Of a stretch of 64,000 nucleotides of DNA, positions 580-64,000 are shown piece by piece (position 1 is the first letter of the stretch; each line of letters begins with the position of its first letter). A program made the translations under genes and the position numbers. This DNA comes from Dulcicalothrix desertica PCC 7102 (GTDB taxonomy: Bacteria; Cyanobacteriota; Cyanobacteriia; Cyanobacteriales; Nostocaceae): contig NZ_RSCL01000001.1 in the NCBI RefSeq assembly GCF_003991905.1, forward strand, positions 310,001-374,000, given 5' to 3'. The notes under the pieces were generated by a model, which saw only the letters and a list, made by a program, of their open reading frames with translations, did not search any database and was not told the origin of the DNA.

Positions 580-749
580 AATTATCGAAATAATACTTGT
601 ACCTGACGTGCAAAAATTCAAGTAACAAGTTTTCTAATAATTCTATACTATTGTTAAGATATCTATGTCTAAATATTACAACTAAAAGGTTGATACTGTA
701 CACCTGCGGATAACCCTCCATCGCATCCAGCAGCTTGAGGCGCCTGTCT

Positions 750-780
750 TACATCCATTACATCCGTTACATCCGTTGCC
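750..780. repeat. Short tandem repeat of CATCCGTTA units
   Basis: Three near-copies of the nonamer CATCCGTTA end in CATCCGTTGCC. The array touches the stop codon of the neighbouring small membrane protein. The same unit recurs at 22530-22560, 22721-22750 and 51900-51940. Confidence 0.8.
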
Positions 781-983
781 TAGAAGCGCCACCAAGTTTT
801 TTGTACGTAAGCAAGAATAGCGAATACGATTGCGAGTCCAAGTAGCAGCCAAATGATTCCTCCTGGGATGGCAGCTAAAATTCCAACGCCAAGCCCTCGC
901 AGTATCCAGACGGCAAGAGCGATACCAAAAAAGATTCCAAATGCTTGTGTTAATAAACGGTTTAATTTAGAATACTGTGACAT
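780..983 (-). CDS. Small two-helix membrane protein, unknown function
   Basis: A 67-residue protein with a polar N-terminus (MSQYSKLNRLLTQ) and two hydrophobic segments at about residues 14-35 and 38-60, joined by a Gly/Pro turn (AAIPGG), and ending in the aromatic/basic tail KTWWRF. The ATG at 983 is preceded in the transcript by GGAGAG-type purine sequence, a plausible ribosome binding site. It stands alone between the partial response regulator and a gene-free stretch. I do not recognise a named family; hairpin-like membrane proteins of this size are common in cyanobacteria. The coding call rests on the clean membrane topology and start signal. Confidence 0.6.
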   Translation of the reverse strand: MSQYSKLNRLLTQAFGIFFGIALAVWILRGLGVGILAAIPGGIIWLLLGLAIVFAILAYVQKTWWRF

Positions 984-1487
984 TTCGGTCTCTCCAACTA
1001 CTATAAAGATTTAATGAAGTATAAATAGTTATCTTGGTTTTTTGTTTTCATTAACGCTCTTGCTAACGCTGTTTTGGACTTGGTATGGCGCCTGAACGCT
1101 CTTTATCTATAGAATTTGAGATTTCAGACGTTAGGCAACTCTTAAGACAAGACGCACTCGTTATGCTTTTTGTGCTATTGTAACGTCTCTATTTGCAGCT
1201 AACTACATTTGATGTTGCTTATTTCAATAAATGCTTCAGTATTTTTACATAAAAAACATACTGTTGATAAAAAAGACATATTTTTGGTGAATTTTCGGGA
1301 ATAATATGGCAACAAAGCACTATTTCCGGACAATTTAGATAATGTAGTGGAATGAGAACTAGTGCGTTATACAAGCGGTTAGCTGCTAGCCATTAGCTTA
1401 CAGCTTACAGCTAATAGCTATTTCAAAAGTTTCGTCTGTTTGTTTGTACTATCGTAGTAAATGTGTTGAGGAGTGATTGAAAATTTT
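984..1487. other. Gene-free stretch with short repeats
   Basis: No supported gene. It contains one GGCGCC site near 1087 and a short repeat of AGCT/TAGC-type words at about 1378-1421 (TTAGCTTACAGCTTACAGC), another short tandem repeat of the kind scattered in Nostocales. The promoter of the downstream SRPBCC gene must lie here, but I see no clear consensus. Confidence 0.5.
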
Positions 1488-2045
1488 ATGTTTATATCCC
1501 ATACTTCTGATTCAGTGATATATACCGAAGGCACAGCTTGGAGTCCTGACAAGCAAGCGAAAATGCTACAAGGTGAGGTTTTTGTTGAAACTTCATCTCA
1601 TAGTGCTTGGGGTGGAGCGGTGACAGCGTGGATGTATTTGCCAATGAAGCGAAACCAAGTATGGCAACAATTAACAGATTATCCTCGCTGGGTGCAATAT
1701 TTCCCCGATGTGACAAAAAGTGAGATTATACAACGGGGCGAAGTTAAACGTCTGTATCAAGCTGCACAAAAAGCGTTTTTATTTTTGACTGCCCAAGTTG
1801 AAATTTACCTGAATGTAGTAGAGGAATTAGGACAGCGTATCCAATTTAAATTAGAAAAGGGTACTTTCCATGACTTTACGGCAAATCTTGAGCTATCTGA
1901 TTTTGGTAATGGAACCTTGTTAAAATACGCAGTTCAGGCAACACCCACAATTCCTGTACCATCAATTTTAATTCAACAAGCCATGAACCTTGAATTGCCT
2001 GCTAATATGCGTAAAATGCGACAAGTACTCATGTTAGGTCAATAA
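1488..2045 (+). CDS. SRPBCC/START-like (polyketide cyclase/dehydrase type) domain protein
   Basis: About 185 residues. The middle (GGAVTAWMYLPMKRNQVWQQ, then the LTDYPRWVQYFPDV stretch) is the characteristic start of a SRPBCC ligand-binding fold, with helix 1 and the 'W..L.dy..w..y.P.v' signature, followed by alternating beta strands and a C-terminal helix (IPVPSILIQQAMNLELPANM). No catalytic residues can be assigned; such proteins bind lipids or polyketide-like ligands. The frame is open from a GTG at 1473, but GAGGAG at 1468-1473 overlaps that GTG and lies 14 nt before the ATG at 1488, so I prefer the ATG. The gene converges on the sugar transferase, with a stem-loop between them. Confidence 0.75.
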   Translation: MFISHTSDSVIYTEGTAWSPDKQAKMLQGEVFVETSSHSAWGGAVTAWMYLPMKRNQVWQQLTDYPRWVQYFPDVTKSEIIQRGEVKRLYQAAQKAFLFLTAQVEIYLNVVEELGQRIQFKLEKGTFHDFTANLELSDFGNGTLLKYAVQATPTIPVPSILIQQAMNLELPANMRKMRQVLMLGQ

Positions 2046-2079
2046 GAACTAATGTATCAGGTAAACAAGTTTTTAGTAG

Positions 2080-2134
2080 AAAGTGCGCTCGTTATAACTT
2101 CTTACCAACTCAGCACTTTTAACGAGCGCACTTT
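2080..2134. terminator. Stem-loop between convergent genes
   Basis: Perfect 14-bp arms, AAAGTGCGCTCGTT (2080-2093) and its complement at 2121-2134, separated by 27 nt. It lies between the SRPBCC gene and the sugar transferase, whose 3' ends face each other. The arm word AGTGCGCTCGT is the same one found at 4538-4589 and 9264-9306. A bidirectional terminator is the simplest reading. Confidence 0.6.
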
Positions 2135-2140
2135 TAACTA

Positions 2141-2818
2141 TTAAAAGGCGCCGACTTTGGCTAGGATGACATAAATAGTTTTAACGATTATTAATACGTC
2201 GTACATTGGGTACCATTTCTTTTGATAGTGTAAGTCTAAATCGACGACTGCCTCAAAGTCTTTGACGTGAGAGCGACCGTTGACTTGCCACTCACCTGTC
2301 AAACCTGGTTTAACATTTAAGCGTTGCCAGTGATGCTGACTATAGTTCATCACTTCGTCTGCTGTTGGGGGACGGGTACCAACCAAGCTCATATCCCCCA
2401 TTAAAACGTTCCAGAACTGAGGTAACTCGTCTAAACTTGTGCTTCGCAAAAAACGACCGAATTTTGTGACTCTAAAGTCGTTCTTGTTTTTAAAAAATAA
2501 TCCGTTCGCTTCGTTCTCTACCAAGTTCTTTAGCTGTGGAGCTTCCACTACCATTGAGCGAAATTTGCGAATTTTAAATGTCTTTCCATGTAGCCCATAA
2601 CGCTCCTGTACAAAAAAAACAGGCCCGGGACTGTCAAATTTTATCGCAATGGCTATAGGTATGAATACGAGACTTAAAATAACTAACCCGACTATGCTAC
2701 CCACAACATCTAAACAACGTTTAAATTTAGACTTGACTGAAGGGTGGTGTTGAATTTGATTATCCCAAGTTTCAGATGCTGCACCCTGAACTATGGTTGT
2801 AAATAGTATTTGATACAT
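2141..2818 (-). CDS. Bacterial sugar transferase (polyprenyl-phosphate glycosyl-1-phosphate transferase)
   Basis: A 225-residue protein with the hallmarks of the bacterial sugar transferase family that starts exopolysaccharide or O-antigen repeat units by moving a sugar-1-phosphate to undecaprenyl phosphate. Visible are a membrane segment at about 36-60 (CLDVVGSIVGLVILSLVFIP), the basic motif GLHGKTFKIRKFRSM, the catalytic-region motif STSLDELPQFWNVLMGDMSL followed by VGTRPP, and KPGLTGEWQVNGRS. The length fits the short family members that lack the large N-terminal membrane domain of WbaP. No polysaccharide cluster adjoins it, so the product cannot be named. The next glycosyltransferases in the window are about 5 kb away. 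Confidence 0.88.
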   Translation of the reverse strand: MYQILFTTIVQGAASETWDNQIQHHPSVKSKFKRCLDVVGSIVGLVILSLVFIPIAIAIKFDSPGPVFFVQERYGLHGKTFKIRKFRSMVVEAPQLKNLVENEANGLFFKNKNDFRVTKFGRFLRSTSLDELPQFWNVLMGDMSLVGTRPPTADEVMNYSQHHWQRLNVKPGLTGEWQVNGRSHVKDFEAVVDLDLHYQKKWYPMYDVLIIVKTIYVILAKVGAF

Positions 2819-3290
2819 TGTAAAGCCGAATTTTTATTAAAACGTATATCTACGTAAGCTTAATTAGACTATAGACTTGACTTTCCTAAATATAATTACT
2901 ATCAACCGTATATTCACTGAATCTTCATCAGCATAGAGCTTATGATGATTTTTTATAAATCTTATATAAAGTAAATTTAATATATCTTATGAAGGATGAA
3001 AAATCTTTTATGTTGTGTTTATTTGAGGTAGTTGTGCTATAGTTTACTACCAGTAAACTACGTGTAATAAATTCATTCGCCAATGTATAAATTACACGCA
3101 AGTAACGGGTTAAACACCTATTTAGCTTAAATATTTACAATATGTCTGATAAAAAGTCGTCTTAGTGTAATGTATACATTTGACTGTTATGTCAATTTAA
3201 GTTAAACATTAGAAACCATTGTATAAAATCTTGATTAAGTTTGGGATTTAGGTAGTAAATTTTACTACTACTTAAATTCCGAATAACTAT
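2819..3290. other. Gene-free intergenic stretch
   Basis: AT-rich, between divergently transcribed genes (sugar transferase on the minus strand, coiled-coil protein on the plus strand). It contains near-repeats of ACTACTA/TAAACTA type (3050-3062, 3262-3275). I see no gene, RNA or convincing promoter. Confidence 0.4.
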
Positions 3291-3653
3291 ATGTTCCAGG
3301 ACAGGCAATTACAATTGCTTTCTGCTCGTGCTATCGATAGAGGTGCTAAAAAAATGGTTGCTGTAGGATTTGATGTAAAAGTTGGTCGTTTAGAGTCGAT
3401 TGTCGAACAAATCGGAGAAGCAGTACTTGCGACTACGGAGACAATTGAGCGGTTGGGAGACCGTGTTGAAAATTTAAGTGGACAGATTGAAGAGCAAGGA
3501 AAGCAAATTAAACAACAGGGATATCAAATTTTGGCATTGTGCGACGCAGTGCAAACTTTGGCTGAAACTCAAGATGATTCTCTACAAAAGCTTTCGCAGC
3601 TTACACAAACTTTAGACCGCTTGATGACAATGATTCAAGGGTCTCCCGAATAA
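3291..3653 (+). CDS. Small coiled-coil protein, unknown function
   Basis: 120 residues. From about residue 30 to the end it is a heptad-patterned alpha helix (RLESIVEQIGEAVLATTETI, then LGDRVENLSGQIEEQGKQIK), with hydrophobic residues at a/d positions and many Gln/Glu, which predicts an oligomerising coiled coil. There is no signal peptide or membrane segment. An alternative start is the ATG at 3354 (MVAVGFDVKVG), which would remove an N-terminus of different character. I do not recognise a family. It sits alone on the plus strand before another unknown gene. Confidence 0.5.
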   Translation: MFQDRQLQLLSARAIDRGAKKMVAVGFDVKVGRLESIVEQIGEAVLATTETIERLGDRVENLSGQIEEQGKQIKQQGYQILALCDAVQTLAETQDDSLQKLSQLTQTLDRLMTMIQGSPE

Positions 3654-3807
3654 TTAGTACTGAGGTGTATATGTGAGAAGTATCCTACCTTTTTTAATCA
3701 ATTGCAGTATATTAGTACTATAAATAAATTATAACTGGATGCGTGCGTTGTTAGAATGTTTTCGCGTCTGGGTACACTTACTGTAGCGTGCAAGAGAGGA
3801 CGTATGT

Positions 3808-4524
3808 ATGGATATAAAGTTAGGGTTTGGAACGGTTCCAAAAGCGCAATATGTTTTTGTGAGTCGCGAAGGTGATGCTTGCTGGTATAGTCTTTCAGAA
3901 GACGGTAAGCAAGTACCAATTTATGAAAAAGCTTTAACAGGTGTAATTACTGGGATTGAGTGTAATAAGAGCGTTGAAACGCAGTACGGGTCAACTTATA
4001 AAACCGACTTAGCGATTTTGGCGCCAACACCTTGCATAATACGTTCGGGAAACTCATCGTATTTTTCCAAGAGTTTACTGCTGTCGCTTGATGCTTTGAC
4101 TGTTGAGCAACTGCGTAATCCTTTAACAATTGCGGTCAGTCCTGGTGAAAAAACGGTAGTATTTTGCAGCATTTACGACCCAGCGACATATCGAGTCGTT
4201 GATTTTAGTTGGGGTGGACACAAAGAAATTGATTTGCAAGCGTTAGAGCAGAGAGTTAGCGCCAAAATAGAGACTATCGCATCACAAACTCAAACCGCGC
4301 AAGTCAGTACGAGTAAAAACACTGAAATTCGCGCCATGATGATGGCACAGATAGATAAGTATTTAGCGCAGTTGAATTGGACACCAGAAATGGGGCGTAA
4401 ATACTTACAGCAAAATTACGCAAAAACTTCACGCCGACAGTTAAACGACGCTGAACTTTTAGATTTCACATTTAGAGTTATCGAAATGGCGGGAGTGCAA
4501 ACTGCATTATCAATTGCTTCTTAA
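3808..4524 (+). CDS. Cyanobacterial hypothetical protein
   Basis: 238 residues, soluble. The N-terminal ~150 residues look beta-rich (YVFVSREGDACWYSLSEDGK, ITGIECNKSVETQYG, TDLAILAPTP), possibly an OB-like or single-strand-binding-type fold. The C-terminal ~60 residues are helical (MMAQIDKYLAQLNWTPEMGR) and end in a compact domain (NYAKTSRRQLNDAELLDF). The start at 3808 follows AGAGAGGA at 3792-3799, a good ribosome binding site. The gene runs into a long perfect stem-loop shared with the convergent hydrolase gene. No function is assigned. Confidence 0.65.
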   Translation: MDIKLGFGTVPKAQYVFVSREGDACWYSLSEDGKQVPIYEKALTGVITGIECNKSVETQYGSTYKTDLAILAPTPCIIRSGNSSYFSKSLLLSLDALTVEQLRNPLTIAVSPGEKTVVFCSIYDPATYRVVDFSWGGHKEIDLQALEQRVSAKIETIASQTQTAQVSTSKNTEIRAMMMAQIDKYLAQLNWTPEMGRKYLQQNYAKTSRRQLNDAELLDFTFRVIEMAGVQTALSIAS

Positions 4525-4537
4525 AAGTGCTGAGTAG

Positions 4538-4589
4538 AAAGTGCGCTCGTGCTGAGTAAAGAGAATAGTACTCAGCACGAGCGCACTTT
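4538..4589. terminator. Long perfect stem-loop between convergent genes, built from repeat words
   Basis: The arms at 4538-4558 and 4569-4589 are perfectly complementary over 21 bp with a 10-nt loop. They carry the words GTGCGCTCGTGCTGAGTA and its complement, which are also dispersed tandem-repeat words in this genome. The right arm reaches into the stop codon of the minus-strand gene (4588-4590). A bidirectional terminator or cruciform is expected. Confidence 0.7.
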
Positions 4590-6078: not shown

Positions 6079-6241
6079 AGATGGAATTTAATTTAATTTA
6101 ATTTTAAATATTGAGCCAAGATGAGTCAATAATTAATTCTTTTATATATCTAATTTAGTTCTTTTAATATAAAGGTTCTCTATAGTAGGTTGGGTAACAC
6201 CCAACCCACAGCAAGTACAGTAAGTACAGCACGACAAATGG

Positions 6242-6643
6242 TTAAGCACCACGTTGCAAAGCAGACTCTACCTGTTTCAACTCTTGTTCTAAACGGGTTT
6301 TAAGTTTTTCGGGCACAGGGCGGTTAGGATAAGAGCTATAATGTCCTGCCAAAGAATTTAGGGCAGTTCGCATGGTGGTGAAAGAACTTAAGCTTGCAAC
6401 AGAGGTGTTACGCTGGTAGCGTGCCGAAAAGTCATTAATTTTTTGACGTGCTTCGGTTTGAATTGCTGCTTTAGAAGGCGCATCATTCGGTAGTTCAATT
6501 GCATTACGTATAATGTTGACTACAGTTAACGTGTCTTGGCTATAATTCCCCGTTAAGCTGTTGGGGTCAGAAGACGAACAACCCATCAAACCAATAGTTA
6601 CAACCAAAACCAAGGCAAGTAGGCGTGACAAATAGCGCTTCAT
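6242..6643 (-). CDS. psb27: Photosystem II assembly lipoprotein Psb27
   Basis: 133 residues from the ATG at 6643; a longer reading from a TTG at 6649 is less likely. The signal peptide MKRYLSRLLALVLVVTIGLM ends in the lipobox LMGC, with Cys22 as the lipidation site, so the mature protein is anchored on the lumenal side of the thylakoid membrane. The body is the Psb27 four-helix bundle, recognisable from the NYSQDTLTVVNIIRNAIELP, SLSSFTTMRTALNSLAGHYS and SYPNRPVPEKLKTRLEQELK stretches. Psb27 binds CP43 in immature photosystem II and keeps the oxygen-evolving site open during assembly and repair. The gene lies directly downstream of cofH on the same strand (30-nt gap), so co-transcription is possible. 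Confidence 0.95.
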   Translation of the reverse strand: MKRYLSRLLALVLVVTIGLMGCSSSDPNSLTGNYSQDTLTVVNIIRNAIELPNDAPSKAAIQTEARQKINDFSARYQRNTSVASLSSFTTMRTALNSLAGHYSSYPNRPVPEKLKTRLEQELKQVESALQRGA

Positions 6644-6672
6644 AAGCAATCAAGAGTGAAAAAATACTTAAA

Positions 6673-7842: not shown

Positions 7843-8026
7843 TTGTTTGTAATGGGTTTATTTATATTAAATCACTTTATTAATTGTAATATATACAACC
7901 ATTAATCGTTTTGGAAAGTGTAACCAATGCTTGTGAAATTCTGATTTTGACTTAAAATCAAGAGCGATAAATTTTTATATAACCTCATCTCTCTGCTCAC
8001 CCTTGGACATTCCACCATCTTATTGA

Positions 8027-9265: not shown

Positions 9266-9306
9266 AAAGTGCGCTCGTGCGCTCGTGCTGAGTGCGCTCG
9301 TGCTGA
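9264..9306 (+). repeat. Direct repeats of GTGCGCTCGTGCTGA words
   Basis: Immediately after the GT2-GtrA stop codon, GTGCGCTCGT occurs three times, twice extended by GCTGA. These are the words that form stem-loops at 2080-2134 and 4538-4589, but here they are in direct orientation. Confidence 0.75.
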
Positions 9307-41485: not shown

Positions 41486-42781
41486 TTACAATACGCGCAG
41501 GCTGCTGGGGATGCTATCTATTGCCTCGAATGTACGTATTTCTTCTAGCGCTTGTTTGAAGTCTCCTTCTTTGACGTCGTGGGTTACGACTACTATTTCG
41601 GCTAGTTTATCTTGAAATCCTGTTTGTACTATAGATTCTAAGCTAACTCCGTGTTTTCCGAAGCTGGTTCCGAGTTTGCCTATTACTCCTGGTTGGTCTA
41701 AAGTTAAGAATCTTGTATAAAATCTTGCTGTTAGTTCGCTTTGAGGAGCTATTTGACAATAATCTTGATGCGAACAACCTAAAAGTGGGTCTAATGGCGC
41801 CGAAATTTGTCCTGTTTGTAACCGCGCGACTAAATTTAGAATATCTGATGATACTGCGCTAGCTGTGGCGCCTGCACCTGCACCGGGACCGAAAAACATT
41901 ACTTGTCCTAAAGGTTCTCCTTCTACAAGTATTGCGTTATATACACCGTTGATATTAGCAAGCGGGTGAGTTTTGGGGACGAGTGTGGGGTGAACACGAA
42001 CGGATAGTGTACAGTCTGTAGGAGACACTTTTTTGGCGATAGCGAGTAATTTAATTACAAACCCTAAATTGTTTGCGTAAGTAATATCTGTTTTACTAAT
42101 TTGTCGAATACCTTCACAGCTTACTTCTTCGCGGTTGATGCGTCCACCGAAAGCTAATGATGCCAATATAGAAATTTTATCAGCAGCATCCCATCCATCA
42201 ACGTCGGCAGTAGGGTCTGCTTCGGCATAACCTAATTTTTGAGCATCTGCTAAAACTGCGTCAAAGCTGCTGCCTTCGGTTTGCATCCGCGTCAATATAT
42301 AGTTAGTGGTACCGTTGACAATACCTGTAACTGTATGAATTCGGTTAACACTCAAAGATTGTTTCAACGGTTGTATAACTGGAATACCACCACCAACCGC
42401 AGCTTCGAGCATGACGTATACACCTTGACGGTTTGCCAAAGTAAAAATTTCGGCACCGAATCTTGATATTACAGCTTTGTTTGCTGTGACTACGTGCTTA
42501 CCGTTTTGAATTGCTTTTAATATTAACTCGCGCGCAGGCTCTAATCCACCAATTAATTCAACGACAATATCTACTTCTGGGTCATTGACAATTGATTCCA
42601 AATCTGTAGTTATTACTGATTTAGCTAACGTGACATCACGAGGTTTATCGAGGGACTTTACACCAACTCGATGAATTTCAACTAACTGTAACAGCGAATG
42701 GCGCCCGACATTATCTTGAAGTAGTTGTACAGTTCCAGTTCCAACTGTACCTAATCCTAATATTCCTAATTTTATACCCAC
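41486..42781 (-). CDS. hom: Homoserine dehydrogenase with ACT domain
   Basis: 431 residues. An N-terminal NAD(P)-binding fold (GILGLGTVGTGTVQLL) is followed by VVELIGGLEPARELILKAIQ, NGKHVVTANKAVIS, the catalytic block GGGIPVIQPLKQSL with GIVNGTTNYILTRM, and GYAEADPTADVDGWDAADKI. The C-terminal ~80 residues are an ACT domain (YTRFLTLDQPGVIGKLGTSF, GVSLESIVQTGF), the usual site of threonine feedback. It converts aspartate semialdehyde to homoserine in threonine/methionine synthesis. Monocistronic here. Confidence 0.96.
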   Translation of the reverse strand: MGIKLGILGLGTVGTGTVQLLQDNVGRHSLLQLVEIHRVGVKSLDKPRDVTLAKSVITTDLESIVNDPEVDIVVELIGGLEPARELILKAIQNGKHVVTANKAVISRFGAEIFTLANRQGVYVMLEAAVGGGIPVIQPLKQSLSVNRIHTVTGIVNGTTNYILTRMQTEGSSFDAVLADAQKLGYAEADPTADVDGWDAADKISILASLAFGGRINREEVSCEGIRQISKTDITYANNLGFVIKLLAIAKKVSPTDCTLSVRVHPTLVPKTHPLANINGVYNAILVEGEPLGQVMFFGPGAGAGATASAVSSDILNLVARLQTGQISAPLDPLLGCSHQDYCQIAPQSELTARFYTRFLTLDQPGVIGKLGTSFGKHGVSLESIVQTGFQDKLAEIVVVTHDVKEGDFKQALEEIRTFEAIDSIPSSLRVL

Positions 42782-42809
42782 AAATAAAACACCCCAAAAT
42801 AAAGTGATG

Positions 42810-43014
42810 AGTAATGAGTGCTGAGTGCTGAGTTTTTGATAAAGTCAACAATCAGAAGTCAGAAAAAAGAACTCGATAATTTTTATCAACAATAAAAAAT
42901 ATTATAGGGTGGCATACGACCACGATACCAGTAGAGACGCGATTAATCGCGTCTCTACACAATTAATCACGTCTCTACAAGCGCACTCAGCACTCAAAAC
43001 TCAGCACTTTTTAC
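42810..43014. repeat. Cluster of dispersed repeats between petH and hom
   Basis: Holds GTGCTGA heptamers (42815-42832), a perfect 28-bp palindrome of the GTAGAGACG family (42931-42958), half of another copy (42964-42979) and TCAGCAC heptamers (42985-43012). The two heptamer groups are inverted to each other. They lie between the petH stop and the hom start. Confidence 0.85.
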
Positions 43015-43017
43015 TAA

Positions 43018-44280
<1,263 letters not shown>

Positions 44281-44540
44281 TTACCACTCCGATTTTTACT
44301 TAACATACGTTTCAAACCCTCTCTACGGTCAATGTGGCTAACTAACCAGCACTACCGTTGTAAAATCGGCATCTCCGTAACAATGCCTTGCGTCGGAACA
44401 CTCGCCATAGACATGCAGGTACTGAAAAAACACACCTGTGTACCTTCTAAAGTAAAGGATAAGTCTATTGGAGAATGTTAATAATGAGTCAATTTAATCT
44501 TTTCTTCCGATACTTTTTCGTTAACAATTCCCAACACATG

Positions 44541-45665
44541 TTAACAAATACATAATCTAAGATTCTCTCTTAGAAAAGGCGTATCAACCAATGCACGAAG
44601 GAATATCCCTCGCGCACCATTTAAATCTCTGTCCATTTGTTGACCTGTGGACTCGGATTTAATAATTTTAGACCCACCTAAATTTTTAACTATTTCTCCA
44701 GACCAGCTTACTGTTTTTGAGGTGTACGCTTCCGAGACATCTATAACTATCTTATTATGTTCTAAAGCTTTATGTTTAATAAATTCTTTGAACTTATAGT
44801 GAGATAACGTTAACATCTGACGTACTGACTTTGACCTGATTCTACGCTTTCCTTTTTTTGCCATCTGAGAGGTTTCAAAGGTCGGTAGTAAAATCACATC
44901 AAAATTCTTTATCAAAAATAAAGCCGTTTTTTTATGCAGTTCCGAAACCAGATTTTTTATTTTAGCCCTGATTCGGTTAGCTGCTTTTTTGAATCGTCTT
45001 TTTACTTGTCCAGTCGATTTGGAAATTACACTACACAATTCATCTAACTTAAAACAAAGTTTTTGAATCTTGATGTTGGCATCCTTACCTAACCAACCAA
45101 ATGACGACTCAGAGAAAAATGTTAAAAATGTTCTGATTCCAGGGTCTAAAGCGACAACACGTCCTTGATTCTCGGTTTCTAGTTGTAGACTTTCTCCAGG
45201 TACTGCTAAATAGTAATCACCATACGCACATACTAAACGGCAATCTCCGAAGTTTTGAGGTAATGGTTCAGTGTACTTAACTGAACCTAATATTGTGTGA
45301 TATATTCCTTTTTCTGATACGGCAGATTTCGGAATATAACACGATTGTTTAGGGTCTTTTCTCGACTTAAAATTAAAGTCAGAAAACACACCTGTGTTTT
45401 GAAATTTGAGCTTGGCATTGCTTACTGCTTTACAAGCATCTTTAATTGCTATTGATTTAATTTGATATGGAGTGTCTTTACACCAATCCGGTAAATTAGC
45501 CAGGATACTACCTTTTACTTTTTTCCAATTGGCTTTTATAACTCCATCCCGTAACAATTCAATCGTTTGATTGTAAACAAATCTAGCAACACCAAACCAA
45601 TTTCTAATTATCGCTTTCTGTTCCGGGTTGAACCTTAGATAAATCTTCCTTGATTTTTTTGGAGT
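44541..45665 (-). CDS. tnpB: IS607-family TnpB (RuvC-like RNA-guided nuclease), start in another frame
   Basis: TnpB homology spans ~375 residues. IYLRFNPEQKAIIRNWFGVA and RFVYNQTIELL open it; the RuvC residues are Asp in RVVALDPGIRTFLTF, Glu in LLPTFETSQM and Asp in DRDLNGARGIF. The usual zinc-finger cysteines between RuvC II and III are absent (TSKTVSWSGEIVKNLGGSKI). The frame is open upstream to 46130, but that part is tnpA read in another frame, and no ATG, GTG or TTG occurs near the start of homology. Entry may be by slippage from tnpA on the A7 tract (45654-45660), which would give a fused product; otherwise a non-standard start is needed. In active elements TnpB cuts DNA at the element-free site using an RNA from the element's 3' end. 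Confidence 0.75.
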   Translation of the reverse strand, partial: TPKKSRKIYLRFNPEQKAIIRNWFGVARFVYNQTIELLRDGVIKANWKKVKGSILANLPDWCKDTPYQIKSIAIKDACKAVSNAKLKFQNTGVFSDFNFKSRKDPKQSCYIPKSAVSEKGIYHTILGSVKYTEPLPQNFGDCRLVCAYGDYYLAVPGESLQLETENQGRVVALDPGIRTFLTFFSESSFGWLGKDANIKIQKLCFKLDELCSVISKSTGQVKRRFKKAANRIRAKIKNLVSELHKKTALFLIKNFDVILLPTFETSQMAKKGKRRIRSKSVRQMLTLSHYKFKEFIKHKALEHNKIVIDVSEAYTSKTVSWSGEIVKNLGGSKIIKSESTGQQMDRDLNGARGIFLRALVDTPFLRENLRLCIC

Positions 45666-46203
45666 ATTCTCTAAGTCCGTGCATTCTACATGAAAAGACG
45701 TGAAGGATTGAGAGTAAATCGCAGTATAGCTCTGACTCTGGGGAATATACAGTTTTATCGAGAACCACGACTTCTCCACCGTTTTGCTCGACCATGTATT
45801 GTATAAGTTCAAATCCAAACCGTGCGAGTCTGTCACGACAGGCAACAATAAGTGTGAACTTATCTCCCCGCAAAAGTCTGTCCAGTAAGGTTTGCAGTCC
45901 TTTACGCTTAAAATTAATTCCTGAACCAATGTCTCGGATAAATTCTGCGTCTGGGTAGAGGGACTGCATGTAGATGACTTGTCTATTAAGGTCTGAACGC
46001 TGTTTTGGGGAACTGACTCGACAGTAGCAAATAGTGGTAGTTCGAGCTGGTGAACCTCCTCTGATGTATGACTCGACATCATAGAGTCTTTGCCCCGCTT
46101 CGTTTTTGATGCTCCTGATTTTCCCTTCATCCGCGTACTTCCTTAACGTGTTTGCACTTAGACCCAGAAACTCGATTGCTTTCCTGAGTGGTACAAATCC
46201 CAT
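45604..46203 (-). CDS. tnpA: IS607-family serine recombinase TnpA
   Basis: 199 residues. An N-terminal MerR-like HTH (MGFVPLRKAIEFLGLSANTL, RKYADEGKIRSIKNEAGQRL) is followed by a serine-recombinase catalytic domain: CYCRVSSPKQRSDLNRQVIY with the nucleophile near Ser64, DIGSGINFKRKGLQTLLDRL, and VACRDRLARFGFELIQYMVE. This order defines IS607-type transposases, which insert with little target specificity and no inverted ends. It overlaps tnpB at its 3' end. The element carries no GGCGCC site, compatible with recent arrival but not proof. Confidence 0.93.
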   Translation of the reverse strand: MGFVPLRKAIEFLGLSANTLRKYADEGKIRSIKNEAGQRLYDVESYIRGGSPARTTTICYCRVSSPKQRSDLNRQVIYMQSLYPDAEFIRDIGSGINFKRKGLQTLLDRLLRGDKFTLIVACRDRLARFGFELIQYMVEQNGGEVVVLDKTVYSPESELYCDLLSILHVFSCRMHGLREYSKKIKEDLSKVQPGTESDN

Positions 46204-46835
46204 TTGTTTATTTATCAGCGATTACGAGCAAATGGTAGCAAACAGCCAACTAGTTGTCAACCTTACCTTCCCACATGCGGAGCGCAATAACTTACAATAT
46301 TAAGTTTTACTTGATGTGAAAAATCTGTCAACCGTTATCAGTTGACTGTTTTAGCGGTTCGTTTTTCAATACACTATACACAATTGTTCAAATTCAGAGC
46401 AAAAATCTTAAAAAATTATAATTATACCTTATTCGGGGCTTTTATCGTGAGTATGCCTCAAATTAAATTAATTATTTTACCATTTAACAAACACTAATAG
46501 CTTCATAGCTTCTGCTCATATTGCAATAACCCGTAAGTAAGATGTGGACTTAAGATAATTCTTACAAAAATTAAGCCTTGTATAGATTCACCTCCTTCTG
46601 TTAAAATCCCTAATAGCACTAGGATTAAATACTTACCAGCAACAAATCTCACAATTAGCAACTCCAGGTAAAACAAATATTTGTTATTACCTGCGGTTTG
46701 TGATATGGCTTTGCGCTGGGTGGCAGAAACGCTTTTAAGGATGCCAGTGGGGTAACTCCAAACCTCACTCCGAAAGGTCTTTTGTGTGAAAAATCATCAT
46801 TGTAATTCATTGTTTTAGTATAAGTAAGGAGATTT
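46204..46835. other. Gene-free region upstream of prk
   Basis: Contains GTCAAC..GTTGAC inverted words (46328-46347) and a possible structured leader at about 46710-46785 (GGATGCCAGTGGGGTAACTC region). The promoter and leader of prk must lie here; no known riboswitch is recognised. The left part may include the end of the IS607 element. Confidence 0.4.
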
Positions 46836-47840
46836 ATGACAAGTAAGCCGGAACGTGTGGTGCTGATTGGAGTTGCTGGAGACTCTGGGTGTGGTAAGTC
46901 TACGTTTTTGCGTCGCCTGACAGATTTGTTCGGTGAAGAATTAATGACTGTTATTTGTTTGGATGACTATCATTGTCTCGACCGTAAACAACGCAAAGAA
47001 ACAGGAATAACTGCACTTGACCCACGAGCAAATAATTTTGACCTGATGTATGAGCAAATCAAAACGCTCAAAGATGGTCAGGAAATTATGAAGCCTATCT
47101 ACAACCACGAAACCGGCATGATTGACCCGCCGGAAAAAATCGAGCCAAATCACATTATTGTGGTTGAAGGTTTACATCCTTTATATGACGAGCGGGTACG
47201 CGGACTAATTGACTTCAGCGTTTATTTTGATATAAGCGATGAAGTTAAAATTGCTTGGAAAGTTCAGCGCGATATGGCTGAACGTGGTCATAGCTACGAA
47301 GATGTTTTACAAGCCATCAACTCGCGTAGACCAGATTTCCAAAAATATATTGAACCTCAACGCGAATTCGCGGATGTTGTTCTTCAAGTATTGCCCACCA
47401 ACTTAATTAAAAACGACGAAGAGCGTAAAGTTCTGCGTGTGCGAATGCTACAACGCGAAGGCAAGGAAGGATTTGAGCCAGTGTATCTATTCGATGAAGG
47501 CTCAACTATTAACTGGACTCCTTGTGGACGCAAGTTGTCATGTTCTTACCCAGGTATGCAACTGTACTACGGTTCAGATGTATACTACGGTCGTTATGTC
47601 TCTGTTTTAGAGGTTGATGGTCAGTTCGATAATCTCGACGAAGTGATTTACATTGAAACTCACCTCAGTAAGACTTCAACCAAGTATGAGGGTGAAATGA
47701 CCCACTTATTGGTTCAGCACCGTGAATATCCTGGCTCCAACAATGGTACTGGCTTGTTCCAAGTTCTGACTGGCTTGAAAATGCGTGCCGCTTACGAACG
47801 CTTAACTGCAAAAGAAGCAAAATTAGCCGTTAATGTGTAA
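46836..47840 (+). CDS. prk: Phosphoribulokinase
   Basis: 334 residues, start ATG 46836 after AAGGAG. The P-loop GVAGDSGCGKSTFLRRL (residues ~12-28) contains Cys19; Cys41 in MTVICLDDYHC is its partner in the thioredoxin-controlled disulfide. IIVVEGLHPLYDERVRGLID and RDMAERGHSYEDVLQAINSR are family blocks, and the C-terminal Cys pair in NWTPCGRKLSCSYPG is present, the region involved in CP12/GAPDH complex formation. It makes ribulose-1,5-bisphosphate in the Calvin cycle and is switched off in the dark by oxidation and CP12 binding. Confidence 0.97.
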   Translation: MTSKPERVVLIGVAGDSGCGKSTFLRRLTDLFGEELMTVICLDDYHCLDRKQRKETGITALDPRANNFDLMYEQIKTLKDGQEIMKPIYNHETGMIDPPEKIEPNHIIVVEGLHPLYDERVRGLIDFSVYFDISDEVKIAWKVQRDMAERGHSYEDVLQAINSRRPDFQKYIEPQREFADVVLQVLPTNLIKNDEERKVLRVRMLQREGKEGFEPVYLFDEGSTINWTPCGRKLSCSYPGMQLYYGSDVYYGRYVSVLEVDGQFDNLDEVIYIETHLSKTSTKYEGEMTHLLVQHREYPGSNNGTGLFQVLTGLKMRAAYERLTAKEAKLAVNV

Positions 47841-47869
47841 CTAAATACATAAAAAATCAATACAAAATC

Positions 47870-47897
47870 AAGGGCGCCTTCCTGGGTGCCTTTTTTT
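47870..47897 (+). terminator. Rho-independent terminator of prk
   Basis: AAGGGCGCC and GGTGCCTTT pair across a short loop (one bulged G), and a T7 run follows. It lies 30 nt after the prk stop. Confidence 0.8.
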
Positions 47898-56689: not shown

Positions 56690-57646
56690 ATGCGAGTAGT
56701 AGCCCTTGTCTCAGGTGGAATAGGCGACCAAATTCTCTTTTTCCCCACAATTGATACAATTAGGCGCCATTATCCAGACGCGCAAATCGATGTCGTTGCA
56801 TCAAGCCGTTCAAAGGCTGCTTACCGGGTAAGTAAGTCAGTGTCAGAAGTGTTAACGTTTGATTTTGAAGACCGTAATAGTTTAGCTGACTGGGGTAACT
56901 TAGTTGGTACAATTCGTGACCGTGAGTACGATGTTGCAATTACCCTTGAACAAAGCTGGGCTGTTGGTCTAATGCTATGGTTAACCGGAATTCCTACCCG
57001 CGTTGGCTTTCTTAGTTTTGGTTCTGGGTTTTTAACTTATAAAATACCTATGAACTCCCAACAGTACCTTGCTACTACATATCATGAACTTGTTCAAGGC
57101 TTGGGTATTAAATCACCTTGCCCAGAATTAGCACTCTCAGTCCCAAAGCCAGATATTGAATGGGCAACGAATGAACAAAAACGCCTTGGTATTAAAGATA
57201 CTGGGTACGTACTATTATACGGTACCTCCGAGTCTTCGTCTGAAACTGGATTGAATAATATTTACCCAACGAAAAATTGGTTGCAAATCATTCAAAATTG
57301 GCAACTCAAACAACCTGATATGCCATTAATTGCTGTTGCGACCTCAGAGAGCGAAGAGTTGATACGTACCCTGAAAGAGTCGGCGCCAAATTTCAAGGTT
57401 ACCGTCCCTGACAATATTGGTAAACTAGCTGCCATGATTGCAGGTGCCAACTTAATGGTATGTGACTCTAGCTACCCAATGCACCTAAGCGTCGCGGTTC
57501 AAACCTTCACTGTTGCCTTATTAGGCGCCAATAACAGCACCAAGTTGTTACCAAAAAACGATAAATTCCTCGCTATTCAATCACCCACTGGTAATATAGC
57601 GGATATTTCAAGTCAAACCGTTTTAGAAAAAATCTGGGGTGGTTAA
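56690..57646 (+). CDS. Glycosyltransferase family 9-like (heptosyltransferase-type) protein
   Basis: 318 residues with the GT9 layout: an N-terminal Rossmann-like domain starting MRVVALVSGGIGDQILFFPT, with DAQIDVVASSRSKAAYRV and YDVAITLEQSWAVGLMLWLT, then a C-terminal domain with NIYPTKNWLQIIQNWQLKQP, VTVPDNIGKLAAMIAGANLM and VCDSSYPMHLSVAVQTFTVA, matching the nucleotide-sugar binding lobe. GG-GD in the first loop is the GT9 signature. The true donor may not be heptose, because cyanobacterial lipopolysaccharide usually lacks it. Confidence 0.88.
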   Translation: MRVVALVSGGIGDQILFFPTIDTIRRHYPDAQIDVVASSRSKAAYRVSKSVSEVLTFDFEDRNSLADWGNLVGTIRDREYDVAITLEQSWAVGLMLWLTGIPTRVGFLSFGSGFLTYKIPMNSQQYLATTYHELVQGLGIKSPCPELALSVPKPDIEWATNEQKRLGIKDTGYVLLYGTSESSSETGLNNIYPTKNWLQIIQNWQLKQPDMPLIAVATSESEELIRTLKESAPNFKVTVPDNIGKLAAMIAGANLMVCDSSYPMHLSVAVQTFTVALLGANNSTKLLPKNDKFLAIQSPTGNIADISSQTVLEKIWGG

Positions 57647-57771
57647 TTAGTTCTATAGGCAGGCAAACTAGTCTGCCTTGATACAAATTACATGATTTAA
57701 TATTTTTCTTTACAACCTCTAGCCATTTAAAATATTTATCTCTTGAAAAACTAGAAATTGGCTTGTTGTAG

Positions 57772-58215
57772 TTAAGCAAACAGTTTAATATTTTCTTTTG
57801 ATTTAAGATTTGATTTAGTTTTTTGAAGAAAAATAAAGCTAACTACAACTCCTTGAGGAAAGATAAGTCTATACCTAAAGACTGATATTTGGTTATGTGG
57901 GATAAAAAGTATATTGCGACTACTTGAATTTTCTTTAATCAAGTTACAAACTAAGTTAACAGTAAATTTTTCAATTCGGTTAATTAAAGCTAAGTTGGCG
58001 AGAGTTGATTGAATATCGAGTTGTATTTGATGCTGGTACCTCAAATACGTTCTTAGGGTGATTTGACCAATTAAAGAAACTTTCAGGAATTGAAACTGTA
58101 TGTTTGTATTTATATTTTGGCAGACTTTTATATAGGTATTAAATATTCTTCGATTGCGAGTAAAGTAACTTTTATGTATGGTAATTGACTGAGCATAAGA
58201 TATTCTAATGCTCAT
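57772..58215 (-). CDS. Doubtful open frame, 147 residues
   Basis: An open frame of 147 codons from the ATG at 58215, rich in Ile/Asn/Gln/Leu, without a recognisable family, signal or clear ribosome binding site. It lies in an otherwise gene-free 1.25-kb stretch between two plus-strand genes. The alternating hydrophobic pattern (FQFLKVSLIGQITLRTYLRY, RNILFIPHNQISVFRYRLIF) could be a small beta-rich protein or chance in AT-rich DNA. Low confidence. Confidence 0.25.
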   Translation of the reverse strand: MSIRISYAQSITIHKSYFTRNRRIFNTYIKVCQNINTNIQFQFLKVSLIGQITLRTYLRYQHQIQLDIQSTLANLALINRIEKFTVNLVCNLIKENSSSRNILFIPHNQISVFRYRLIFPQGVVVSFIFLQKTKSNLKSKENIKLFA

Positions 58216-58221
58216 AATCAA

Positions 58222-58896
58222 GTGCGTTGCGTAACATTACAGTAGCAAGTCGAAAGTTTGTGATGATTGTAATTTATAATACCTAAAAAAATAAAATGAG
58301 TGGTCTCACCCCTCTGTACAAGTCAGAGTAGAGCTAAGTAATATATTAATCTTTCAACGAAGGTTTTGGTTCTGAGGTTAGTGCATCAAGTTGTTATCAG
58401 CTTCATAGGTTTCTTTCCTATTAGAGAGTTCATATATCAACTCTTTGTAGCATTAAGGTGCCTGTTTAGCTTACTCACATAAGTAGTAATTGTAAAACAT
58501 GACACTAACATTGAGTTTAAAAAGCTTATATCGTAAGGGTTTCAGCGGCATCAGCCAAAAAAATAGAAATTTTTTTAATTAATCTGTTAGTTTCGGCAAC
58601 TGTTTGGGAACACTATATAGGACTGAAATTAGAGACGAATACAAAGTCAGTCTCTACACATTGTTATCTAAATTAACATTGTGGTTCTATTATCAACCCT
58701 AGTTTGTCAAGTATACCATTTAACAATTGATAAAGTATCCAGATTGAATCCAAATGACATCTATCTAAAGATAGATAATTAGATAATCTGGAAGACTCCT
58801 AAAAGGAGATGTATGGGTTGAATAGCTGATTAACCAAATTAAAAGTGATTGGCGTGCGTCTACTGATAGATTTGATATTCTCAAGGGGACAATATA
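58222..58896. other. Gene-free stretch upstream of the unknown gene at 58897
   Basis: AT-rich. It holds an imperfect AGAGACG...AGTCTCTACA hairpin (58630-58660), a TATCTAAAGATAGATA inverted word (58760-58777) and an AAAAGGAGATGTATGGG stretch (58801) that resembles a ribosome site without an attached frame. No gene is supported. Confidence 0.4.
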
Positions 58897-59649
58897 ATGG
58901 CGATTAAATTACATAGCTTTGTTATTACCGGAAAACGATACATCCAAGTTGACAGTCAACCACTTCATATCACTGGCATATTCAAAAAAATCACGGAGTG
59001 GATTAAATTACGTAAATGTAGCCTTAATGATATCCGTAATGCTTATTATTATTGTGAAGAAGATGGTACAGTTACCTTCTATCAGGCAGATAAATCGGAA
59101 GTAGAGCATCCTGGAATATGGACTTACATGTTATATGAATGTCCAGAAGGTCAAGAAAATGTATTCCCGGACTCTGGAATTGACACAAGTCTAAAACCGC
59201 TCTATCGACTTTTAGCAGGTGATAAACTCGCGCAAGAAACAATTAACATCAATCAGTACCTTGAGTATCGCTATCAAGAAGGTAAATATCTTGATGTTCA
59301 ATTGCCATTAGGCTGGGATAATACTGAAGCTAGAAAAATTTCTAATTTATTATATAGAGAGTATCAAGTATTTAATACCTCAGCAATTTTTGCCGAAACC
59401 GCAGGTGAAAAATATATGCAAGCGGTTATGAAAAAATTTATTCAAGCTGCTACATCTATTTTAGAAGCGGGTGGTAACTCTCTTGAATTTGAGTACATGC
59501 AGCACGAAATTCTCAGACAAGTTAAAATTGATGATATGGCCAATTTAATCTTAGATTTAAATGATTATCGTATTTGGCAAGCTTTATTACCAAGCGAATC
59601 AAAAGCTGTTGAATATGCTTTCAATACTGCCTTAAGTCGCATTGCGTAA
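58897..59649 (+). CDS. Hypothetical protein, unknown family
   Basis: 250 residues from the ATG at 58897, preceded by AAGGGGAC. It is soluble and acidic, without a signal peptide. The N-terminal third is beta-rich (KLHSFVITGKRYIQVDSQPL, YYYCEEDGTVTFYQADKSEV); the C-terminal half is helical (EARKISNLLYREYQVFNTSA, AVMKKFIQAATSILEAGGNS, QALLPSESKAVEYAFNTALS). I do not recognise it. It is flanked by a long gene-free region upstream and a tandem palindrome downstream. Confidence 0.65.
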   Translation: MAIKLHSFVITGKRYIQVDSQPLHITGIFKKITEWIKLRKCSLNDIRNAYYYCEEDGTVTFYQADKSEVEHPGIWTYMLYECPEGQENVFPDSGIDTSLKPLYRLLAGDKLAQETININQYLEYRYQEGKYLDVQLPLGWDNTEARKISNLLYREYQVFNTSAIFAETAGEKYMQAVMKKFIQAATSILEAGGNSLEFEYMQHEILRQVKIDDMANLILDLNDYRIWQALLPSESKAVEYAFNTALSRIA

Positions 59650-59659
59650 ATTAAATAAC

Positions 59660-59722
59660 GTAGAGACGCGATTTATCGCGTCTAAATACATGTTGTAAAG
59701 ACGCGATTTATCGCGTCTCTAC
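59660..59722. terminator. Two tandem palindromes of the GTAGAGACG family between convergent genes
   Basis: AGACGCGATTTATCGCGTCT occurs twice (59662-59682 and 59698-59718), with outer GTAGAG/CTCTAC completing a larger fold. It separates the 3' ends of the genes at 58897 and 59728, so bidirectional termination is likely. Confidence 0.7.
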
Positions 59723-59727
59723 ATCGA

Positions 59728-60198
59728 TTAAAACATTGAAAATAGACCATCTTCTAGGTCATATCCTAATAACTGCGCCATTGCTTTAAGTCTAGATTGG
59801 TGCGGTATTTCTTGTTTTTTAAGCCAGTCGGTTAAAATAAAAATCTTGCTCATCAAGAATATTTCTAGTGCTTCTGGGTTGTATTGTATTCCTTCTTTTG
59901 TGAATTGGTGCGGTACTAACATTGCCGCATAGCGAGTAAATTCTTTTTCTTGCCAATTTAAAAAAAATGGTAGCCACGGGTAACGTGTATCTAAACGAAC
60001 AAACCACAAACGAATTTCGGGTATTTCTGAAAGTTCGCGTGGGTCTCCGTCTTCTCTTGGATAGTCAATATTGAAAATTAGCTGCTGCTCGTTTGACAGA
60101 ATTGCGTTTTTTGAACTAATTTGTTCTATTACCTCAACAGCGGGTGAAATGTCCAAAGTATTAATTTGGTCAATATTTACTGTAATTGTAGTTGACAT
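59728..60198 (-). CDS. CRR6-like NDH-1 assembly protein
   Basis: 156 residues. The blocks IPEIRLWFVRLDTRYPWLPF, FLNWQEKEFTRYAAMLVPHQ, GIQYNPEALEIFLMSKIFIL and TDWLKKQEIPHQSRLKAMAQ match the chlororespiratory reduction 6 family (PF08847) as I know it. In plants and cyanobacteria it is needed to build the NDH-1 hydrophilic arm (NdhI step). It is soluble, with no cofactors visible. The ubiA-type gene lies 18 bp upstream on the same strand, so the two are probably co-transcribed. Confidence 0.82.
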   Translation of the reverse strand: MSTTITVNIDQINTLDISPAVEVIEQISSKNAILSNEQQLIFNIDYPREDGDPRELSEIPEIRLWFVRLDTRYPWLPFFLNWQEKEFTRYAAMLVPHQFTKEGIQYNPEALEIFLMSKIFILTDWLKKQEIPHQSRLKAMAQLLGYDLEDGLFSMF

Positions 60199-60215
60199 TT
60201 ACTTTCTCGCGCTTT

Positions 60216-61097
60216 TCATAACAAATTACCAGCTATCATGCCTGCAAGCAAAATAAATCCTATCCAAACATTTTGCTTAAACATTTCAGCATATGCTATA
60301 CTAGTGAGGCTGTCATCTTTTAGACGCATTAATTGCCAAGCCCAGCCTAGTGCAGCAAGTGCAAGACTTAACCAGAAAGCAATATGAAGGTGAATAGCAA
60401 AACCTAACCAGCCAAGCAGAGCAACAGTACCAATGTAAAAAAGACCAATTGCAATGGGGGCATAGGCGCCGAAAAACAAGGCGCTAGAATTAACGCCAAT
60501 ACGTTTATCGTCTTCTCTATCGCTCATAGCGTATACAGTATCGAACCCTAAAGTCCATAGTACAGTGGCACCCCATAATAACCAAGTCGGCTGCATTATA
60601 TTTTTTGTAACAGCGCTCCAGCTAATTAAAACGGCAAAACCCCAAGCAATGGATAGTACCAATTGTGGAACGGGAAATACTCTTTTGGCGCCTGGGTAAA
60701 GAACAATAACTGGAACAGCAGCAACACACAACCAAAATGAGAGCGGGTTGAGATAAAAAGCCAGACCTGCCGCACAAACAAAAGAAATAATAGCAACAGC
60801 GATACCAACTTTTACAGAAAGTGCGCGTGAAGCTAAAGGACGGTTTTTAGTGCGCTCAACTTCTGGGTCAATGTTTCTATCCCATAAATCATTAATTACA
60901 CAACCAGCAGCACTAGTAGCAAGGGTGCCAAGCACAATGACGCCAACTAAAGGTAGTGGAGGTTTTCCCGCTGCTGCTAGGAATACAGCCCACAAGGCAG
61001 GAATCATTAAGATTAATCTTCCTTCGGGCTTGTGCCACCTCAAAAGCTGAATTATGGCAACAGCCGTGTTTTGGTGGTTTTCGAGTGACTTTAGCAT
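60216..61097 (-). CDS. ubiA: 4-hydroxybenzoate polyprenyltransferase (UbiA family)
   Basis: 293 residues with about eight membrane helices. The two Asp-rich motifs are NDLWDRNIDPEVERTKNRPL and SDREDDKRIGVNSSALFFG, which bind the prenyl diphosphate via magnesium. The N-terminus LRWHKPEGRLILMIPALWAV is typical of HBA prenyltransferases. In cyanobacteria this enzyme prenylates 4-hydroxybenzoate for plastoquinone. The CRR6-like gene follows directly, and ppx is divergent upstream. Confidence 0.93.
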   Translation of the reverse strand: MLKSLENHQNTAVAIIQLLRWHKPEGRLILMIPALWAVFLAAAGKPPLPLVGVIVLGTLATSAAGCVINDLWDRNIDPEVERTKNRPLASRALSVKVGIAVAIISFVCAAGLAFYLNPLSFWLCVAAVPVIVLYPGAKRVFPVPQLVLSIAWGFAVLISWSAVTKNIMQPTWLLWGATVLWTLGFDTVYAMSDREDDKRIGVNSSALFFGAYAPIAIGLFYIGTVALLGWLGFAIHLHIAFWLSLALAALGWAWQLMRLKDDSLTSIAYAEMFKQNVWIGFILLAGMIAGNLL

Positions 61098-62945: not shown

Positions 62946-62965
62946 ACTTCTTGTAAATTTCTCTT

Positions 62966-62997
62966 GTGGAGCGGGCATCCCTGCCCGCCCATCCCAC
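62966..62997. repeat. Dispersed hairpin GTGGAGCGGGCATCCCTGCC, second copy
   Basis: Same element as 36529-36558 with the same flanking CTTGT..CCCATCCCA words, 21 nt after the ppx stop codon. Likely used as terminator. Confidence 0.75.
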
Positions 62998-63335
62998 AAA
63001 ATCACCCCAAAAAATATCAAGCTCAAATTGATACAAAATTAAAATAACTATCATTTGATTAAATATATATTTTTCTTCCAATTGAGTAAATATAAAAACT
63101 TATTTTCACGCATTGATACATATTAAATTAATCCATTACTGGAAATAATAGTAGACTCTAAGTTATTAAGGGTGTACCGATAGCATTTAAGTATATAAAC
63201 ATACTTTTTCAACTATCTATAAATAATTTTTATTCAATCTCGCTTCATATCAAAAGCGAGAATATATGCTTTTGTCGCGCATTCTATCTGGTTACGTTGT
63301 TAAAGCAATATTGAAGATAACGCGAGGTTAATTTA
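62998..63335. other. AT-rich intergenic region
   Basis: Very AT-rich, with no gene seen. It contains the promoter region of the partial gene that follows; CTCGCTTCATATCAAAAGCG (63239-63258) has a weak inverted character. Confidence 0.4.
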
Positions 63336-64000
63336 ATGTCGATGTTAAATTTGGCTGCCTATAGTTTGTTAGCTTTTGCTGCTCCAGAAATAAACCATGT
63401 TCAAAATAATTCTTACCTGAATCAAGTAAACCCTAACTCTACTATAACGGTTTCCAGTATTGCATCTAATTCTTCTTCAAATACCGATATTTTTGCTGCT
63501 CACATTGAAAAAATAAAACAGAATTTACCGTCTGATTTGAGAATGCGTTTACCATCCGGGATATTATTAAGCAAAAATACCAAAAATTATACAGTAGAAG
63601 TATTTAGCACTTCTCAATCTCGTTCAACCGTTTATGTTTACGATTGTGAACAGCAGCAGTATAGTTGCTTTATTGGTAGTTTTAGTGTAGCGAATACAAG
63701 CTCGGATGAAGCTTTGCAAGAATTTAAACAATTTCAGAATATTGCCAAACCAATAACTATAGCAAATAATCTTCAGGGATATTTATTAAAGGGTCAAGGA
63801 CAAAACGGACTACCAGATTCGCAAATTATTTGGCAGCAAGATAACCAATTTTATAAAGTTACATTACTGGATGAGTCTAATGATTTATTAAAAATAGTAA
63901 ATTCAATGGTAGATTCGGCGCCAATTGTTAATACGGCTCTTGCGATTATACCAAGTCGGCGCCCTGTTTTAACAACAGCAGAACACCTACGAGGCGGAGA
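63336..64000 (+). CDS. Exported protein of unknown function (partial, runs off the right edge)
   Basis: The ATG at 63336 follows GAGG at 63323-63326; the frame stays open for 221 codons to the window edge. A short hydrophobic start (MLNLAAYSLLAFAAPEIN) may be a signal peptide. An Asn/Ser-rich stretch follows (NSTITVSSIASNSSSN), then a domain with helix and strands (HIEKIKQNLPSDLRMRLPSG, YTVEVFSTSQSRSTVYVYDC, WQQDNQFYKVTLLDESNDLL). The visible part ends PSRRPVLTTAEHLRGG. No family is recognised. Confidence 0.7.
   Translation, partial: MSMLNLAAYSLLAFAAPEINHVQNNSYLNQVNPNSTITVSSIASNSSSNTDIFAAHIEKIKQNLPSDLRMRLPSGILLSKNTKNYTVEVFSTSQSRSTVYVYDCEQQQYSCFIGSFSVANTSSDEALQEFKQFQNIAKPITIANNLQGYLLKGQGQNGLPDSQIIWQQDNQFYKVTLLDESNDLLKIVNSMVDSAPIVNTALAIIPSRRPVLTTAEHLRGG

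Follow-up and report, generated by a model that had tools for sequence, protein, structure and literature searches.

The window, by which we mean the whole stretch of 64,000 nt analysed here, carries the palindrome GGCGCC 98 times in comparison to 3.67 copies expected from base composition (26.7-fold), which agrees with the original prediction of about 100 sites where about four were expected. The first site starts at position 739 and the last one lies at 63958-63963. The features of the window referred to below are as follows.

739..63963, no strand: 98 GGCGCC sites, in and between genes, across the window
42706..47872, no strand: longest site-free stretch, with petH, an IS607-like insertion and prk
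44509..46257, minus strand: strain-specific IS607-like insertion with serine resolvase and TnpB, aligning in 0 of 6 congeners
45604-46203, minus strand: serine resolvase of the IS607-like element
44541-46130, minus strand: TnpB RNA-guided nuclease of the IS607-like element
57530..60464, no strand: second site-free stretch, with one site there in 4 of 6 congeners

A maximal-order Markov model of the window also ranked GGCGCC first among hexamers (98 copies in comparison to 52.1 expected), although this is a weak test because the counts of GGCGC and GCGCC stem mostly from GGCGCC itself. The whole genome (11,419,637 bp in 109 contigs) contains 19,393 sites, or one per 589 bp. For a sample of 460,289 bp of this genome, made up of the window and 20 stretches, GGCGCC was counted 796 times in comparison to 23.0 expected (34.6-fold), which places it at the top of all hexamers. 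The palindrome second in over-representation was CGCGCG with 6.5-fold, GCGCGC reached 4.6-fold, and the all-GC palindromes besides GGCGCC were at 6.5-fold or below, the majority being avoided. GGCGTC/GACGCC and GACGTC were found at 0.30 and 0.08 times expectation, respectively, CGATCG was depleted (2 in comparison to 59 expected), and GGTGCC was at 1.66 times expectation; in 180 kb from two other genera, GGTGCC and GGCACC together numbered 13, roughly 0.3 times expectation by arithmetic. The HIP1 octamer, GCGATCGC, had not been seen by the original prediction and has indeed 0 copies in the window; in the whole genome it occurs only 58 times, so that it is not frequent elsewhere either.

Some other words in the same material deserve mention. 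Seven palindromic hexamers (TGCGCA, GTGCAC, GTCGAC, GCATGC, CGTACG, CCATGG and CCGCGG) were at zero in the 460 kb, and hexamer palindromes containing GATC were strongly depleted; the missing and depleted palindromes may reflect many restriction systems. The 8-mers CTCAGCAC and GTGCTGAG were conspicuous in the window with 16 and 8 copies, respectively, and are possibly a short repeat family.

The position of the sites relative to codons was counted over 304 kb using simple ATG-ORF calls. Among 434 sites inside ORFs, all three phases were occupied, with 234 in the phase GGC GCC and 78 and 122 in the other two, and 79 of 513 sites fell outside the ORF calls in comparison to 123 expected by length. 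The earlier statement that the hexamer is not tied to one codon phase is thus correct as far as occupancy goes, but the phases are uneven. Likewise, it was correct that no 8-mer extension is fixed, but the flanks are mildly biased: in the 460-kb sample a G immediately precedes GGCGCC in 9.9% of cases, and the commonest 8-mer is CAGGCGCC. The spacing of the sites was random (CV 1.07 in comparison to 1.00 +/- 0.04 for random placement), except that gaps shorter than 50 bp were scarcer (22 in comparison to 41). Regular spacing was therefore rejected, and the random spacing provides no support for a set point of site density or repair distance.

Both site-free gaps named in the original prediction, at 42.7-47.9 kb and 57.5-60.5 kb, are real. 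The longer one, of 5.2 kb, is mildly unusual, with P 0.026 in the window and P 0.08 as the largest gap in 304 kb. The IS607-like insertion has no GGCGCC and, together with one small unaligned block, shows 0 sites in comparison to 3.1 expected; the aligned parts of the gap (2.7-3.4 kb) have no site in any of the six congeners either. The gap is hence not due to the insertion alone, because the aligned remainder is site-free in all seven genomes.

The genus comparison comprised the genome of the window (G000) and six other genomes: the MAG C42_A2020_038 (G001), PCC 7716 (G002), NIES-4105 (G003), Calothrix PCC 7103 (G004), the MAG FI2-JRJ7 (G005) and HK-06 (G006). Identity over the window was 95.6% to PCC 7716 and 94.3% to PCC 7103. 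The GGCGCC counts of the congeners were 7,475 (6.5 Mb), 20,380 (12.4 Mb), 18,131 (12.0 Mb), 17,704 (11.6 Mb), 14,889 (8.7 Mb) and 15,449 (10.0 Mb), so that the excess was found in all seven genomes of the genus (7,475-20,380), where HIP1 numbers 31-163. The other genera of the family, represented by one genome each, were without excess in 29 of 29 cases, with 3-530 GGCGCC and 535-7,721 HIP1. That GGCGCC takes here the role which HIP1 has elsewhere, as had been proposed, is borne out by the whole-genome counts and by this genus-wide pattern within a family rich in HIP1.

The genome was found to have 13 matches to PF00145 in 11 genes, one of them truncated, and a matching methyltransferase lacking its own nuclease, which the original prediction had suggested looking for, was identified by homology as follows.

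Contig C4 of G000, 441,733-442,689, minus strand: C5 methylase L004 (PF00145)

L004 shares 54-69% identity with the 13 long methylases that adjoin the nuclease RE_HindVP in relatives, a fourteenth such methylase being a fragment, and in the alignment with these 13 its recognition segment is nearly identical to theirs. By its C5 domain and recognition segment, as judged against these nuclease-linked members, L004 would belong to the GRCGYC C5 methylases of the BsaHI/HindV type. Its specificity for GRCGYC rests on homology, and the cyanobacterial pairs of methylase and RE_HindVP would presumably share this target. A shift of specificity to strict GGCGCC was not visible, as the recognition segment is nearly that of the nuclease-linked relatives; within it, the motif TIR[S/G]VNRP has S in five and G in two of the seven genomes. 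The L004 family is present in all seven genomes at one syntenic locus, flanked by a RuBisCO-like gene on one side and an SLH/GHL10 gene on the other (in G006 it is split across contig ends). Additional copies were found in G002-G006, whereas G000 and G001 each have a single copy, which rules out a need for two. RE_HindVP (PF09519), in contrast to 14 of 80 relatives that have it, was found in none of the seven genomes, so that by this marker the genus does not have a HindV-type restriction-modification system.

The absence of the nuclease was also compared with the GGCGCC counts across 388 cyanobacterial genomes, using a methylase cut-off of E 1e-60. An L004-type methylase was found in 40 of them, and 37 of the 40 also had RE_HindVP sequence, in six cases only partial or in pieces. 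The 37 genomes with both had 0-152 GGCGCC, in comparison to 19,393 (G000), 9,489 (G293) and 208 (G426) in the three without nuclease, and the association of nuclease absence with GGCGCC excess gave a Fisher P of 0.004 with kinship ignored. G426 has the methylase without the nuclease, yet shows only these 208 sites and has kept HIP1 (3,327). G293 has lost HIP1 (74 copies; its congeners G280, G320 and G042 have 3,110, 3,424 and 134) and is possibly an independent switch. It is not a clean replicate, as its enriched words are broader (GCGCCG 11-fold, GGCGCC 8-fold and AGCGCC 7-fold in 24 kb with GC 0.515). The GGCGCC counts over the 388 genomes are raw and uncorrected for GC: genomes of family f34 that look GC-rich reached up to 5,932, but the control pattern was in the thousands there too, and this control pattern, CCGCGG, is a poor one for the genus of the window, which has an Eco29kI pair. 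G043, with 2,493 GGCGCC (raw), was rejected as a second case since its GC is 0.48-0.52 and the count in 78 kb is about twice expectation. G422, G306 and G371 also have raised raw counts, but they retain HIP1 and none is among the 40 methylase-bearing genomes. In G042, which bears the same genus label (g37) as G293 and consists of one contig, HIP1 is nearly gone (134) and GGCGCC is few (343); this genome may carry yet another iterated word.

Two further C5 methylase families, L009 (370 aa) and L010 (Eco29kI-type), occur in all seven genomes, although in G006 one of the two is fragmentary. The methylases L010 (contig C62) and L012 (contig C4) share 78% identity, and a similar reading frame follows each of them; the frame adjoining L010 was confirmed as RE_Eco29kI. 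This Eco29kI pair, whose target we take to be CCGCGG, fits with the absence of CCGCGG from the 460 kb. There are also a 661-aa C5 methylase about 3 kb from L004 (L066, 13483-15465 of its own stretch of contig C4), present in five of the seven genomes, and, elsewhere in the genome, a 464-aa C5 methylase with a truncated paralogue (L001 and L008, 81% identical over 192 aa).

To follow the sites among close relatives, as had been suggested, 304 kb of contig C1 were aligned with the six congeners, with a coverage of 37-193 kb each. The results showed that the sites outlast nearby hexamers: from G000 to G003, 128 of 169 GGCGCC were retained (0.757) in comparison to 0.469 for nearby hexamers, and from G000 to G001, 30 of 61 in comparison to 0.304. 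The codons GGC, GCC, CGC and GCG with unchanged amino acid were further compared inside and outside sites of the same genes (ATG-ORF calls of at least 100 aa; Mantel-Haenszel procedure with 125 strata). Against G003, 195 of 218 such codons inside sites were identical in comparison to 273 of 457 outside (odds ratio 6.8, z 7.4), and the odds ratio was 4.5 against G005 and 5.0 against G004. Because synonymous codons inside sites are better kept than the same codons outside, protein constraint does not explain the conservation, demonstrating that it is the DNA sequence of GGCGCC sites which is maintained.

The spectrum of losses and gains was then compared with expectation. Over 403 ancestral site-branches there were 32 single-base losses in comparison to 48.0 expected; 23 of the 32 were central C>T changes, where trinucleotide context predicts 16.2 (a figure that the sites themselves inflate), and all remaining changes together accounted for 9 in comparison to about 32. 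Of the 229 variable site columns, 118 showed C3>T, 32 G1>A and 10 G2>A, and none showed C3>A or C3>G. Polarised gains numbered 2 over 94 ancestral one-off site-branches (0.53 expected), with 1 of 13 from GGTGCC. A three-state model without branch classes gave a rate of 21.9 for GGTGCC>GGCGCC, in comparison to 3.9 for CGCGCG, 2.9 for GCGCGC and 0.2-0.6 for four other palindromes. When extra terminal losses were allowed, this rate was 7.0, with a fit 19.5 log units better than at 0.5, while eight of nine control palindromes reverted at 0.20-0.91 and CGCGCG at 3.5. The terminal loss scale was 7.1-fold for GGCGCC and 1.4- to 6.5-fold for the nine controls, so that some of the surplus of terminal losses is not particular to GGCGCC. 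A clear difference was observed for internal losses other than C3>T (0.39 in comparison to 1.8-3.6 in the controls). The C3>T rate of GGCGCC was 0.56 on internal branches (controls 0.31-2.4) and 4.0 on terminal ones (controls 1.2-4.4), and since it lies within the control range, hypermutation at the supposedly methylated base is not shown by rate; rather, it is the scarcity of all other losses that makes C-to-T at the presumed target base of such a methylase the prevailing change. The model suggests a fast reversion of GGTGCC to GGCGCC, although the GC-rich controls revert fairly fast too. No Vsr-type repair endonuclease was found in any of 80 relatives, and such an enzyme was rejected as the agent.

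We consider it quite probable that GGCGCC is the alternate HIP of the Calothrix genus, accompanied by a solitary GRCGYC-type methylase, with sites lost via GGTGCC/GGCACC and this loss counteracted. The palindrome is in great excess over the whole genome and across the genus, HIP1 has been lost, and the sites are conserved beyond background, synonymous positions included. Homology supports a solitary C5 methylase of predicted GRCGYC type at one syntenic locus, without nuclease and kin to restriction-modification methylases. This enzyme would methylate the central C to give GG-m5C-GCC, the majority of site losses would go via GGTGCC/GGCACC, and the loss would be countered either by a repair bias that methylation directs, namely the G-meC-dependent mismatch repair proposed by Elhai, or by selection that favours methylated sites. 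We lean slightly toward biased restoration over selection, with data that are compatible with both. Going further, and in our view rather unlikely, the HIP may be the footprint of a former restriction system: in a lineage lacking HIP1, a GRCGYC pair would have shed its nuclease, and the leftover methylase together with methylation-guided repair would have spread GGCGCC and reverted GGTGCC. This is rated lower because the reversion signal has to be weighed against control palindromes rich in GC and against a C>T rate that is not raised; if true, HIPs would be products of methyl-directed mutation correction instead of protein-binding sites.

Another explanation, to which we would give somewhat less than an even chance, is that GGCGCC, methylated or not, serves as a binding or processing site in replication, nucleoid organisation, recombination or repair and is kept because purifying selection removes losses, neither mutation nor repair driving its upkeep. 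The conserved synonymous positions within sites, the rarity of non-central losses, the small number of direct gains and the greater frequency of losses on terminal than on internal branches, as with mildly harmful changes that are later purged, would all agree with it. However, the terminal excess is seen in control palindromes too, the model still needs the fast reversion of GGTGCC by 19.5 log units after correction for terminal losses, and some 19,000 randomly spaced sites give no sign of positional function. It seems improbable that another methylase is the driver and L004 a bystander: the L009 and L010 families are likewise in all seven genomes and the enriched words of G293 fit GRCGYC poorly, but L010 adjoins RE_Eco29kI with its CCGCGG at 0 in 460 kb and is hence an unlikely driver, and no other methylase in the comparison comes nearly as close as L004 to the nuclease-linked HindV type. 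An artefact of composition or of codon usage, i.e., of Gly-Ala encoded as GGC GCC, can practically be dismissed and was rejected; it would account for the preferred phase (234 of 434), but not for sites in all three phases and outside ORFs, for other all-GC palindromes that stay at or below 6.5-fold and are mostly avoided, for the lack of excess in other genera of the family, or for the lower conservation of the same codons outside sites.

Why a single short palindrome is repeated thousands of times in many cyanobacteria is unsettled, as the consulted sections of Elhai 2015 (PMC4390886) show. The present genus has one palindrome where relatives have another, with congeners so close that the gain and loss of sites can be followed directly, and the link to the missing nuclease, the prevalence of C>T among losses and the synonymous conservation make the idea of methylation and repair testable. 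Selection on HIP1 has reportedly been treated by Xu and others in a 2018 NAR paper. Among the matches listed, no account of the GGCGCC motif besides Elhai 2015 was found in titles or abstracts. In the sections consulted of that paper (PMC4390886), GGCGCC is called an "alternate HIP" in Calothrix PCC 7103, where HIP1 is low; that strain has two GrCGyC methylases, the second possibly critical, a mismatch repair dependent on G-meC is proposed, and the data come from a single genome and a further 19 kb from Calothrix D253. The iteration of GGCGCC is thus an already published phenomenon, now seen in a sister genome of PCC 7103, to which we add its genus-wide extent, its link to the missing nuclease, the spectrum of site losses and the synonymous-site test.

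In comparison to PCC 7103 as described in these sections of Elhai 2015 (PMC4390886), the present genome shares the genus, the hexamer, a low HIP1, a GrCGyC methylase, the top 8-mer CAGGCGCC, and the strong under-representation of GACGTC and moderate one of GACGCC/GGCGTC. As in that description of an alternate HIP, a GC-rich palindrome lies far above its genome-wide expectation (19,393 sites; 34.6-fold), HIP1 is nearly absent (58 in comparison to 535-7,721 in 29 genera), and an enzyme predicted by homology to methylate the site, of the L004 family, is encoded in 7 of 7 genomes. Loss of a CGATCG-specific methylase also belongs to that description, and the count made here concerns the word CGATCG itself (2 in comparison to 59 expected). 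Where Elhai described one genome, the pattern here covers all seven, of which G000 and G001 have one GrCGyC methylase each. HIP1 is likewise a very frequent GC-rich palindrome, tied by Elhai to solitary methylases; it differs in sequence (GCGATCGC) and in methylase targets and is essentially absent here. The restriction-modification systems of the BsaHI/HindV type have the target GRCGYC (Neely and Roberts 2008, PMC2413257, as given in the part consulted), and L004 is homologous to RE_HindVP-linked methylases with the same recognition segment; unlike these systems, the genus is without RE_HindVP, and instead of avoiding all forms of the site the genome accumulates one of them.
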